Part shown: positions 4,632 to 47,947 of the stretch, piece after piece
How the letters are laid out: each line of letters begins with the position of its first letter
Numbering within the stretch: the first letter of the stretch is position 1
Assembly: GCF_000025325.1 (NCBI RefSeq)
Contig: NC_013743.1
Span: 1,612,001-1,676,000, forward strand
Reading direction: 5' to 3'
From: Haloterrigena turkmenica DSM 5511
Lineage (GTDB): Archaea; Halobacteriota; Halobacteria; Halobacteriales; Natrialbaceae
DNA length: 64,000 nucleotides
Notes under the pieces: model-generated
What the model was told of the DNA's origin: nothing
The model's input: only the letters and a program-made list of their open reading frames with translations
Database searches by the model: none
Position numbers and translations under genes: made by a program

Positions 4632-6338
4632 TTAGAGTAGGTAGCGCTGTGCGAGCGGAATCTCGTCGGCCGGATCGCAGGTGACGTGTTCGCCGTCCAC
4701 TTCGACCTCGAACGTCTGGGCGTCGATCTCGATATCGTCCGGACAGTGGTCGTTGTGGACCATGTCGGACTTACAGACCTCGCGCGTGCCTGTGACGGGT
4801 CGAACGGGCGTTTTCAGGTCGTAGGCGTCGCCGACCTCGTTCTCGTAGGCGGCCTCGCTGACGAACGTCACCGAGAGGCCGTGTTTCGCCCGGCCCTGCG
4901 CGCCGGCGCGCTCACGGCCGATCACCGGTTCACAGGTCATCAGCGAGCCGTTGGCCTCGCCCATCTGGGACCAGACCGGGAAGCCGCCCTTGATCACGGC
5001 CTTCGGCTTGACGCCGAAGAAGGCCGGATCCCACAGGGCGATGTCGGCGAGTTTGCCGGGCTCGAGCGAGCCGACGTAGTCGTCGATCCCCGCCGTAATG
5101 GCGGGGTTGATCGTGTACTTGGCGACGTAGCGTTCGATGCGGGCGTTGTCGGCGTCGGTCCCCTCGTCGGCGGAGAGCGGGCCGCGCTGGGCCTTCATCT
5201 TGTGGGCGGTCTGCCACGTCCGACTGATTAGTTCGGCCATCCGGCCCATCGCCTGGGAGTCGGTGGTCATCATCGAGATGGCCCCCGTGTCGTGGAGCAC
5301 GTCCTCGGCGCCGATCGTCTCCGCGCGGATGCGCGACTCGGCGAAGGCGACGTCCTCGGGGATGTCCGGATCGAGGTGGTGACAGACCATCACCATGTCG
5401 AGGTGCTCGTCAAACGTGTTCTCGGTGTAGGGCATCGACGGGTTCGTCGACGACGGCAGCATGTGCTCGTGGCCGATCAACTCGAGGACGTCCGGCGCGT
5501 GGCCGCCGCCGGCGCCCTCGATGTGGAAGGTGTGGATCGCGCGCCCGTCGATGGCGTCGAAGGTGTGCTCGACGAAGCCCGACTCGTTCAGCGTGTCCGT
5601 GTGGATGCAGACCTGAACGTCCTCCTCGTCGGCGACCTCGAGGCAGGTGTCGATCGCGGCGGGCGTCGACCCCCAGTCCTCGTGGAGCTTCATGCCGCAG
5701 GCGCCGGCCTCGATCTGCTCGACGAGCGCCTCGGGCCGGCTGCTGTTGCCCTTCGCGTAGAAGCCGACGTTGACGGGCCACTCTTCGGCGGCCTGCAGGA
5801 ACCGCTGGATGTTCCGCGGCCCGGGCGTACAGGTCGTTGCACCGCCGCCGAAGCCGCCGCCGAGCATCGTCGTGACGCCCGATCCGAGCGCGTGATCGAC
5901 CAGTTGCGGGCTGTTGAAGTGAACGTGGATGTCCAGCGCGCCGGGCGTCGCGATCAACCCGTCAGCGGGGATGGTATCGGTGCTCGGACCGATTACCATG
6001 TCGACGCCGTCCATGGTGTCTGGATTGCCGGCCTTCCCGACGCCGACGATCTTCCCGTCGCGGACGCCGATATCGCCCTTGCAAATCCCCAGCACGGGAT
6101 CGATTATCACGACGTTCGTAAAGGCCCAGTCGAGGGTCCCTTCGGCCTGGGTCGTTCCCGACTGCATCCCCATCCCGTCGCGCATCGTCTTCCCGCCGCC
6201 GAAGACGGCCTCCTCGCCGGGAACGCCGTAGTCGGTCTCGATCTCCGCGAAGAGGTTCGTATCGCCGAGTCGGAGGCGATCGCCCTCGGTCGCGCCGAAC
6301 AGTTCCGTGTACTCCTCGCGGGAAAGGTTGCGGCTCAT
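4632..6338 (-). CDS. ureC: Urease alpha subunit UreC (catalytic)
   Basis: This is the catalytic subunit that hydrolyses urea to ammonia and carbamate at a dinuclear nickel site. The 568-residue length is standard. Visible catalytic features are the HxH metal ligands in DIHVHFNSP (His138, His140), the lysine that is carbamylated to bridge the nickels (Lys217 in [11 protein letters not shown]), the following histidine ligands in [11 protein letters not shown] and [14 protein letters not shown], and the mobile-flap region around [13 protein letters not shown]. The C-terminal part carries the amidohydrolase beta domain, ending [11 protein letters not shown]. It overlaps ureB by four bases. Every residue needed for activity appears present, so the enzyme should work once nickel is loaded. 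Confidence 0.97.
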
Positions 6339-23649: not shown

Positions 23650-24423
23650 ATGATCGTCGTCGTTCCGGTCGATCCGCCTCGAGAGGGTCTCGTCCTGTCG
23701 TCGCTCGTCGACGAAACGCCACTGTCGGCCGCCGACGCCGTCGCGCTCTACGAGGCCGCCGTCGCCGACGTCTGCTGGGCCGTCGCCGAGAGCGGCGGCG
23801 ACCTGCTGGTCAACTACCGCGACGCGGAGACGCTGCCCGACGAGTTCGCCGCCGACGACGCCGACCCCGAAGCCGAGGTCCGCGCGCTCGTCATCGACGC
23901 GCTCGGGGAGGACGCCATCGCCGGCGACGGTGACCGCGACGAGGGCGTCCGATTCGAACGTCAGGTCGGCTCGAGTCGCGCCGCGCGAGTCGGCAACACC
24001 GTCACGCACCTCCTCGAGCGCGAGGGCGCCGACAGCGTCGGTGTCCTCGAGCCGACGGCCCCGCTGGTTCGGCGCACCGAGATCGACAGCGTGGCGATGT
24101 CGGTCCGGCGCCACGAGGTCGTCCTCGGGCCGTCCGACGAGGGACGGACCTACCTCGCCGGCTTCCGGGAGGCGATCGATTTCACCGACGCGTACGCGAC
24201 GCCGGAGGTGACCACGCTGGCCGCTCGAGCAGCCGACGCGGATTTCGGGGTCGGGTTCGCTCCGATGCTCCCGACCGTCGATACGCCCGCGGGACTGCGC
24301 TCGACGCTGACGCTGCTCGAGGCGCGACGCCTCGCGGACCAGCCGGGCAGCGAGGCGACGGCCGCGGTCGTCGACGAACTGGGGCTGGCGGTCGGGGACG
24401 ACGGCTCGCTCGAGCGATCGTAA
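23650..24423 (+). CDS. DUF2064-like (GT-A fold nucleotidyltransferase-related) protein
   Basis: This 257-residue protein begins MIVVVPVDPPREGLVLSSLV. Conserved blocks (VGVLEPTAPLVRRTEIDSVAMSVRRHEVVLGPSDEGRTYLAGF, then IDFTDAYATPEVTTLAARAADADFGVGFAPMLPTVDTPAGLRSTLTLLEAR) follow the GT-A-type DUF2064 pattern, in which a central LGP.D.G motif lines the active site. The N-terminal nucleotide-binding loop of canonical members is poorly conserved, so activity is uncertain. It ends 40 bases before the tRNA-Ser gene. The function is unknown; CofC/MobA-like transfer is a possibility. Confidence 0.7.
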   Translation: MIVVVPVDPPREGLVLSSLVDETPLSAADAVALYEAAVADVCWAVAESGGDLLVNYRDAETLPDEFAADDADPEAEVRALVIDALGEDAIAGDGDRDEGVRFERQVGSSRAARVGNTVTHLLEREGADSVGVLEPTAPLVRRTEIDSVAMSVRRHEVVLGPSDEGRTYLAGFREAIDFTDAYATPEVTTLAARAADADFGVGFAPMLPTVDTPAGLRSTLTLLEARRLADQPGSEATAAVVDELGLAVGDDGSLERS

Positions 24424-24463
24424 CCGACAACACTTTTTGAACGTACGGAGAAGGTGACGATGA

Positions 24464-24546
24464 GGTGGGGTAGCGAAGCGGCCTAACGCGCCTGCCTTGA
24501 GAGCAGGTGGCTTCTAGCCTCATGGGTTCGAATCCCATCCCCACCG
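24464..24546 (+). tRNA. tRNA-Ser(UGA)
   Basis: A complete cloverleaf folds. The acceptor stem is GGTGGGG (24464-24470) with CCCCACC (24539-24545), and the discriminator is G at 24546. The D arm has the GCG/CGC stem. The anticodon stem is CCTGC/GCAGG around CTTGAGA, with anticodon TGA. A long variable arm (TGGCTTCTAGCCTC), typical of serine tRNA, and the T arm ATGGG-TTCGAAT-CCCAT complete it. No CCA is encoded and no intron is seen. It is followed by tandem copies of its own 3' end. Confidence 0.97.
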
Positions 24547-24996
24547 CCTTCTCGCGAGTACTATACGACGAGCGAAGCGTGGCGCGTAGCGCCACGGAAT
24601 AGCGAACGGCGAAGCCGTGAGCGAAGCGAGGAGTCTCGCGAGCGAGAAAGCGACACGTTGGGATTCGAATCAGGGAGTGAAGCGAACGGAGTGAGCGGAA
24701 CGACCGTGGTTCGAATCCCATCCCCACCGTTGCTGTCGCGAACAATCTCGTGAGCGACAGCGAGACGGTTGGATTCGAAGAACGGAACGAGGGAGCGAAG
24801 CGACCGGCGTTCCGGTAGTTCGAATCCCATCCCCACCGTCTTCTCAGGAGCATCATACGGCGAGCGAAGCGAGGAGTAGCGCGAGTGAGACGACGACACG
24901 CCGAAAGACGAATCGGAACCGGCCACGACTGGCGTCGGTTCGTCGCCTGTACTCGCAGGTGGAACACACACTCGCGTCCGATGTGAACACTCCGCA
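24547..24996. repeat. Tandem units headed by copies of the tRNA-Ser 3' end
   Basis: The 21-base tRNA end GTTCGAATCCCATCCCCACCG (24526-24546) recurs exactly at 24709-24729 and 24818-24838. The three spacers show two related types. The 33 bases after copies 1 and 3 (24547-24579 and 24839-24871) align without gaps at 26 positions. The spacer after copy 2 is of a different type, shared with the tRNA-Thr tail. Each copy is preceded by an inverted T-arm segment that can pair with it (24659-24669 with 24710-24720; 24771-24779 with 24819-24827). No gene is seen up to the ATG at 24997. Confidence 0.85.
24732..24761 (+). repeat. Hairpin with 14-base loop following tRNA-tail copy 2
   Basis: GCTGTCGC (24732-24739) pairs perfectly with GCGACAGC (24754-24761) around the loop GAACAATCTCGTGA. 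It begins two bases after the second tRNA-Ser tail copy. A hairpin with the same loop pattern and a compensated stem change sits at 47852-47879, directly after tRNA-Thr. Confidence 0.75.
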
Positions 24997-25332
24997 ATGA
25001 GCGACGCCGACGACTCCGGACCGGATACGCCCGGAACCGACCAAGAAGAGATCGACGAGGACGCCAGACTCCTCGGCAACGAGCCCGATGAGGAGGCGAT
25101 CGACGAACCGACCCGAAGCCAGGAGCAGGAGGCCCAGGAGACCTACTGGATGGTCAAAGAGATGGTGGCCATCGGGATCTTCTCGATTCTCGGCGTCATC
25201 CTGCTCGGGTTCGGACTGCTGCAGGCGGGGGGACTCGTCGAGATACCGGGCCCGTTCGGCGACTGGATCACGTTCATCGCGCTCGCGGCGCTCCTCGTCG
25301 CGGCGTTCGCGTGGACCCAGCGGGGAACGTAA
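24997..25332 (+). CDS. Haloarchaeal acidic membrane protein
   Basis: This 111-residue protein has a strongly acidic cytosolic N-terminus (residues 1-48, rich in Asp and Glu) followed by two hydrophobic segments (about 54-75 and 88-106) separated by GGLVEIPGPFGDW. The C-terminus is a short WTQRGT. The architecture is common in uncharacterised haloarchaeal families; I do not recognise a named domain with certainty. It is convergent with the lipid-kinase gene, with 15 bases between stops. Confidence 0.75.
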   Translation: MSDADDSGPDTPGTDQEEIDEDARLLGNEPDEEAIDEPTRSQEQEAQETYWMVKEMVAIGIFSILGVILLGFGLLQAGGLVEIPGPFGDWITFIALAALLVAAFAWTQRGT

Positions 25333-47775: not shown

Positions 47776-47849
47776 GCCAGGGGAGCATGGGTGGTTCATG
47801 CACTCGACTTGTAATCGAGACTCCCGGGGTTCAAATCCCCGCCCTGGCT
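47776..47849 (+). tRNA. tRNA-Thr(UGU)
   Basis: A full cloverleaf folds. The acceptor is GCCAGGG (47776-47782) with CCCTGGC (47842-47848), and the discriminator is T. The D arm is GCAT/ATGC around GGGTGGTTC. The anticodon stem CTCGA/TCGAG surrounds CTTGTAA, with anticodon TGT. The T arm is CGGGG-TTCAAAT-CCCCG. No CCA is encoded and no intron is present. A degenerate copy of its 3' end follows about 100 bases downstream. Confidence 0.97.
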
Positions 47850-47851
47850 TA

Positions 47852-47947
47852 CTGACGCGAACAGATTCGTGAGCGTCAGCAACGAGACGGGATTTGAATC
47901 AGGGAGCAGCTCTGCTGCGACCGTGGTTCAAATCCCCGTCCTGGCTT
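47852..47947 (+). repeat. tRNA-Thr tail unit: hairpin, inverted T arm and copied 3' end
   Basis: Directly after the tRNA comes a hairpin, CTGACGC/GCGTCAG (47852-47858 and 47873-47879), with loop GAACAGATTCGTGA. Next is an inverted T-arm segment GGGATTTGAA (47889-47898), then TCAGGGAG, a small GCAGC-TCT-GCTGC hairpin (47906-47918), CGACCGTGG, and a copy of the tRNA 3' end, GGTTCAAATCCCCGTCCTGG (47925-47944), with one mismatch to the tRNA. The order and the TCAGGGAG and CGACCGTGG words are identical to the tRNA-Ser tail unit near 24.66-24.71 kb. Confidence 0.85.

Follow-up and report, generated by a model that had tools for sequence, protein, structure and literature searches.

Two-hairpin units matched to their own tRNA tails behind tRNA genes of Halobacteria

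Few sites are used more often for integration in prokaryotes than the 3′ ends of tRNA genes. Behind the tRNA-Ser(UGA) gene of Haloterrigena turkmenica DSM 5511, the tail of the gene recurs in tandem, each copy preceded by an inverted T-arm segment. The question raised by this locus is whether such repeated tails are ordinary attachment-site scars or belong to a distinct, recurrent structure. We addressed it in the window, i.e., the whole stretch of 64,000 nucleotides that was analyzed, and in comparison with other haloarchaeal genomes.

The tRNA-Ser array

The array resolves into two complete units and the remnant of a third:

24464-24546 (+): tRNA-Ser(UGA) gene, target of the array (ARAGORN; Rfam RF00005)
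24526-24546 (+): 3′ tail of tRNA-Ser, from T-loop to discriminator, 21 nt, GTTCGAATCCCATCCCCACCG
24547-24657 (+): first hairpin region of unit 1, an elongated form with a GC-rich hairpin inserted within it (RNA folding)
24658-24670 (+): inverted T-arm segment of unit 1, TTGGGATTCGAAT, complementary to the tRNA-Ser tail
24671-24708 (+): variable apical hairpin of unit 1, with conserved linkers CAGGGAG...GACCGTG, a module common to other genomes
24709-24729 (+): exact tail copy 1, end of unit 1
24730-24766 (+): first hairpin of unit 2, TTGCTGTCGCGAACAATCTCGTGAGCGACAGC, with a tandem G.A motif, plus spacer (folding and family)
24767-24779 (+): inverted T-arm segment of unit 2, GGTTGGATTCGAA
24780-24817 (+): apical hairpin of unit 2 (folding)
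24818-24838 (+): exact tail copy 2, end of unit 2
24839-24892 (+): degenerate third unit, a first-hairpin remnant without inverted arm or tail (26/33 against the start of unit 1)

A preceding sequence-only reading had pointed out the triplicate tail, the kinship of the segments that follow the first (gene) and third tails, and the ability of each inverted segment to pair with a tail. All three observations were borne out: the exact tail occurs nowhere else in the window, the 26/33 ungapped identity over the 33 nt was equaled in 0/20,000 permutations, and both inverted segments pair with the next tail in RNA folding. The segment 3′ of the tail copy at 24709-24729 is not unrelated either, as it contains the canonical first hairpin GCTGTCGCGAACAATCTCGTGAGCGACAGC at 24732-24761. 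In RNA folding, the minimum free energy of unit 1 was −75.5 for the + strand and −65.8 for the − strand. An orthologous remnant of the degenerate third unit was found in a congener (genome G003, locus L040).

The only Rfam match above gathering at the array was the tRNA, an sX4 hit being a subthreshold chance match. Two antisense open reading frames, 24182-24997 (−) and 24561-25079 (−), span the array; their MGFEP/GMGFE-like peptides are translated from the reverse complement of the tRNA tails, and antisense ORFs of this type behind haloarchaeal tRNAs are probably spurious. Elsewhere in the window, positions 5901-6164 (+) matched the Rfam family 5_ureB_sRNA (RF02514) with 62.7 bits (gathering, 40), a surprising hit in a haloarchaeon, behind which there is possibly no real sRNA but only the conservation of a urease gene.

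The second tRNA of the window also bears a unit, whose own-tail copy (47926-47946) has 20/21 identity to the gene:

47776-47849 (+): tRNA-Thr(UGU) gene
47850-47946 (+): complete unit behind tRNA-Thr
47852-47879 (+): first hairpin of this unit
from 47889 (+): inverted arm of this unit

Distribution, anatomy, and folding of the units

The sequence-only reading had proposed a search of the downstream regions of all tRNA genes for tRNA-specific tails, and this check was positive. The host genome (G000; 5.4 Mb, haloarchaeal) gave 46 tRNA matches, and 45 tRNA genes were examined. At a threshold of at least 18/21 nt within about 320 bp downstream, 19/45 tRNAs, among them the tRNA-Thr of the window, were followed by a copy of their own tail, about 50 to 160 bp downstream, versus 6/1966 mismatched pairs of tail and downstream region in the same genome. 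Own-tail copies were found behind 18/47 and 19/46 tRNAs in the congeners G003 and G004, respectively, and behind 1/28 in one non-haloarchaeal relative.

Units were sought by both tail-based and pattern-based searches, their apical parts varying too strongly in length for a covariance model. The pattern for the second hairpin (hp2), TTYGAAYNAGRN{14,44}CGTRGTTCRAA, consists only of universal T-loop bases and linker bases. It matched in 39/53 haloarchaeal genomes versus 0/242 other genomes of the phylum, while the reversed pattern gave one match in all. A haloarchaeon lacking a strict-pattern match had own-tail copies at 18/21 or better behind 7/29 tRNAs, with 9 at 16/21. In a GTDB scan, only Halobacteria were among the matches listed, which included the genera Natrinema, Natronococcus, Haloarcula, Halorubrum, Halobellus, Halogranum, and Halovenus. 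Of the 176 distinct hp2 sites, 158 followed a same-strand tRNA gene within 500 bp, with a median of 101 bp from tRNA end to tail copy. The tail at 148 of these sites was that of the tRNA itself at 17/21 or better (101 perfect). In most of the ten weaker sites, the own tail had an indel, had decayed, or was cut off at a contig end; the tail of another tRNA was found at none of the hp2 sites behind tRNAs. The tRNA-tail-matched units are a class-wide repeat system in Halobacteria. An apparent orphan unit in G000 was rejected as an exception to the rule, as it belongs to a tRNA-Trp gene 2.3 kb upstream from which it is separated by an insertion.

The plan of the units, conserved at many different tRNAs (nearly all tRNA kinds), comprises a first hairpin that starts directly at the tRNA 3′ end, an inverted T-arm segment, a variable apical hairpin, and a tail copy that spans G53 to the 3′ end of the tRNA. 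The first hairpin is typically CTGCCGCGAACAAATCCGTGAGCGGCAG, with tandem G.A pairs possible in its inner loop; TGGGATTTGAA is an example of an inverted arm, and apical linkers are exemplified by TCAGGGA...GACCGTG, CTAGACC...GGGCGTA, and CGAGAGAA...TTCGCGTG. In the apical and first hairpins of many units, a haloarchaeal repeat of the GAGCGAAGCGAG type can form a GCGAAGC mini-hairpin with tandem G.A pairs on either side, a fold restricted to the tRNA-sense strand.

The inverted arm is tRNA specific. The six bases adjacent to the universal TTYGAA, compared in 156 units, matched the complement of the unit's own copy at 71%, compared to 55% when arms were shuffled between units (maximum, 60% in 2000 shuffles). 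Where the T-stem holds a G.U pair (Lys, Val(TAC), Arg(CCT), and His), the arm is the complement of the 3′ strand; the alternative that it copies the 5′ strand of the T-stem was rejected, as the informative cases mostly fit the 3′-strand complement. The outermost T-stem pair of Arg(TCT) disagrees with this rule. Where copy and gene differ, the inverted arm agrees with the gene 36 times and with the copy 11 times, as expected if arm and tail were matched when the unit originated. Within the tail copy, the T-arm part is more conserved than the acceptor part. An apparent excess of wobble-preserving changes in tail copies was discounted, base composition probably accounting for it.

Of 100 units, 90 have a better fold on the tRNA-sense strand than on the complementary one, and the difference between strands is larger than in dinucleotide shuffles (p about 1e-15 by the Wilcoxon test; mean z, −4.8). 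In 40 related unit pairs from orthologous tRNAs, double changes that keep pairing numbered 57 versus 15.5 expected, and broken pairs 182 versus 263 expected. Conjointly, sense-strand folding and compensatory changes indicate that folding is constrained on one strand; RNA and single-stranded DNA both fit this.

Gain, loss, and origin of the units

Orthologous tRNAs were compared across three species of one genus (G000, G003, and G004). At Ala(CGC), G003 has no unit, G000 one, and G004 two; G004 retains the older unit of G000 and has a new one immediately adjoining the tRNA. In the case of Glu(CTC), Pro(GGG), and Arg(GCG), a single additional unit is present in one species, beyond which the flank equals that of the other. 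The boundaries are exact to the base (tRNA end, unit, tail copy, old flank), and the apparent gains are precise, of 97 to 135 bp, with no larger element. Instead of insertions, these filled and empty states could reflect precise deletions between the 21-bp repeats. Decayed copies were also seen at the same tRNA among congeners. In the orthologous Glu(CTC) units the first hairpins are alike and the apical part is exchanged, and apical modules recur unchanged across tRNA kinds and genera. At another locus (L403, G031 C1 2193500-2197500) a tRNA-Asp gene is present twice, each followed by a similar two-unit array, which suggests that tRNA and array were duplicated together.

The reading we favor, which we hold to be about evenly balanced once the uncertainty in direction is counted in, is that the units are short site-specific insertion cassettes of Halobacteria moved by a recombinase. 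Such cassettes would be gene-less, about 70 to 180 bp long, and specific to tRNA 3′ ends. Each would consist of the first hairpin plus the left arm and apex of the second and would sit between the last base of the tRNA and a duplicate of the 21-nt tail, the latter pairing with the inverted arm of the cassette and so completing hairpin 2. The newest cassettes would adjoin the tRNA, whereby the arrays would resemble those of CRISPR or integrons, with the tRNA as the leader and the tail as the repeat. Gains may occur by site-specific recombination or transposition that recognizes the block from T-loop to 3′ end, probably on the folded tRNA-sense strand, and losses by recombination between the 21-nt tails. 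In favor of this reading count the own-tail copies, the distribution of hp2 matches, the exact filled and empty sites, the apical modules common to different tRNAs and genera, the sense-strand fold with its compensatory changes, and the tyrosine recombinases described below. The structural conservation of units after insertion speaks against it, as it suggests a continuing function for which a purely selfish cassette would have no need.

The putative recombinase would act in trans. Cas1 (PF01867) gave no match in 10/12 unit-bearing genomes, including G000, G003, and G004, and the Y1 transposase none in 3/12 (G004, G012, and G190), G000 having only a fragment of the latter with a stop; both were rejected as the universal machine by these absences. 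Tyrosine recombinases (PF00589), detected in 6/6 genomes checked, were the only candidates present in every genome, which makes them a weak candidate for the cassette mover. An open frame of 741 to 777 codons with a phage-integrase domain is found in all three congeners (G000 C1 1005629-1006117, G003 C1 521938-522426, and G004 C1 2456328-2456816), possibly a conserved chromosomal recombinase. The genomes searched yielded no enzyme for the cassettes, no circular intermediate, and no autonomous partner.

The main rival, possible if rather unlikely in our judgment, holds that the units are trailer RNAs transcribed with the tRNA and folded on the sense strand. Arm and tail copy would mimic a T-arm/acceptor piece that acts on 3′ processing, termination, or quality control, and gene conversion or selection would maintain the match to the tRNA's own tail. 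Folding on the sense strand only, compensatory changes in the stems, the better conservation of the T-arm part of the copy, and the start of the unit directly at the tRNA 3′ end are all consistent with this. However, whole units are gained and lost rapidly, congeners have decayed copies behind the same tRNA, and about half of the tRNAs have none. The agreement of the arm with the gene over the copy (36 against 11), many cases leaving G.U wobbles, moreover indicates that pairing is often not repaired.

An improbable account is that homologous recombination suffices, a single ancient unit type having spread by exchange of tRNA loci among haloarchaea and unequal crossing-over between tails with no dedicated enzyme. 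The two- or three-unit arrays, the mosaic modules, and the Glu(CTC) units that keep hairpin 1 and swap the apical part would agree with it, but it leaves unexplained why the same apical modules stand behind unrelated tRNAs with matching tails and arms. We rate as distinctly improbable a nucleic acid-guided insertion in which the inverted arm would be the guide complementary to the target tRNA tail. The sense strand, folded as RNA or single-stranded DNA, would direct tail-duplicating insertion behind that tRNA, giving rise to self-targeting, leader-proximal arrays at many tRNA genes of the class.

The least probable reading, already largely refuted, is that many viruses and plasmids integrated serially at each tRNA and were then lost, leaving their tails as ordinary attachment-site scars: tRNA tails do commonly serve as archaeal attB sites (PMC8371274) and insertions at them exist here, but against it speak the hairpin plan shared by almost every kind of tRNA, the precise gains with no larger element, and two larger insertions that lack hairpins and displace the unit. 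One of these insertions, of 3.2 kb, lies between tRNA-Val(CAC) and its unit in Haloterrigena salina contig_37 (L171). It carries an ORC/CDC6-like gene, ends in a tail copy with two mismatches, and looks like an integrated plasmid remnant; an integrase suspected from an ORF was unconfirmed by Pfam and PHROGs. The other, of 2.3 kb (L404 2637-4913; G000 C1 about 2022636-2024912), separates tRNA-Trp from its unit, carries HalOD1 and TrmB-family genes, and is delimited by a tRNA-Trp tail repeat of 15 nt. Neither has hairpins at its ends, and an integrase was recognized in neither. Read most simply, the unit is a distinct entity that preceded the insertion and was displaced by it.

As with attL/attR, a direct repeat of the tRNA 3′ end flanks the site; what lies between the repeats, however, is not an element that differs from locus to locus but the two-hairpin unit everywhere, the larger insertions being outside it. 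No unit with a large element inside was found, nor any unit-like sequence in BLASTN searches of plasmid and phage collections. Seven pattern matches in viral contigs had raised a viral origin, which was rejected, the six resolved being AT-rich chance matches with no tRNA. Pairs of hp2 sites 0.6 to 1 kb apart, considered as autonomous units with cargo, proved to be separate tRNAs with their own units (Val/Phe in G190, Asp/Asp in G031). The doubt voiced in the sequence-only reading that simple att-site scars suffice was hence justified by the conserved plan and by the hairpin-less insertions between tRNA and unit. Its suggestion of serial integration followed by loss held in part: whole-unit presence and absence with exact boundaries agree with site-specific serial insertion, and the view of the arrays as leftovers of lost larger elements found no support.

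Comparison with known systems and implications

A close bacterial likeness is that of the 178-bp repeats of Escherichia coli tyrT (rtT RNA), which stand in tandem behind a tRNA gene and each carry about 19 nt of its 3′ end. They are not known to have a tRNA-specific inverted arm; they are longer and belong to one locus in one bacterial group, whereas the haloarchaeal units occur class-wide at many tRNA kinds. Rfam, whose families presumably include rtT, gave no rtT match at 24400-25000 at E values up to 1. Integron attC sites are folded imperfect hairpins with an inner loop and a variable apex, arrayed behind a primary site. Arrayed imperfect hairpins with a variable apex make the units similar by analogy only, as these have no cargo genes and a tRNA gene as the primary site.

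The casposase of Aciduliprofundum, whose recognition sequence TCAAATC is that of a T-loop, targets the 3′ end of a tRNA and duplicates its target on insertion (PMC6614799). This precedent shows that T-loop-directed, tail-duplicating insertion is feasible in principle, and CRISPR arrays for their part grow leader-proximally (PMC6614799). Casposon target duplications are, however, of 14 to 15 bp versus 21 in the units, in which no terminal inverted repeats were seen, and Cas1 is missing from most unit-bearing genomes checked, as given above. SMR, PATE, and MITE of Haloquadratum are small transposase-free mobile repeats of haloarchaea, SMR-A and PATE without target duplication and PATEs linked to IS605 (PMC3119063). 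None is described there as tRNA-tail matched; PATE or REP lack target duplication where the units duplicate a 21-nt tail, and the resident Y1 transposase that would accompany IS200/IS605-derived elements has no match in 3/12 unit-bearing genomes as noted. Methanopyrus kandleri has a palindrome, CGTTA-N9-TAACG, about 10 bp behind about half of its tRNAs (PMC5217627), likewise an archaeal motif behind tRNAs but short and with neither tail copy nor T-arm part. Each named family tested thus fails in at least one defining feature, and the units are apparently unnamed. No description of them was found in the open-access literature; an earlier one is possible in subscription papers, which lay outside the search.

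In practical terms, the units produce spurious ORFs and false att sites in annotation. If true, the class-wide placing of small tRNA-matched structured cassettes would represent a new type of element, mobile or regulatory. The system could reveal a new recombinase and account for some of the turnover at tRNA loci in haloarchaea, and it could bear on the origin of tail-duplicating, leader-proximal arrays such as CRISPR.
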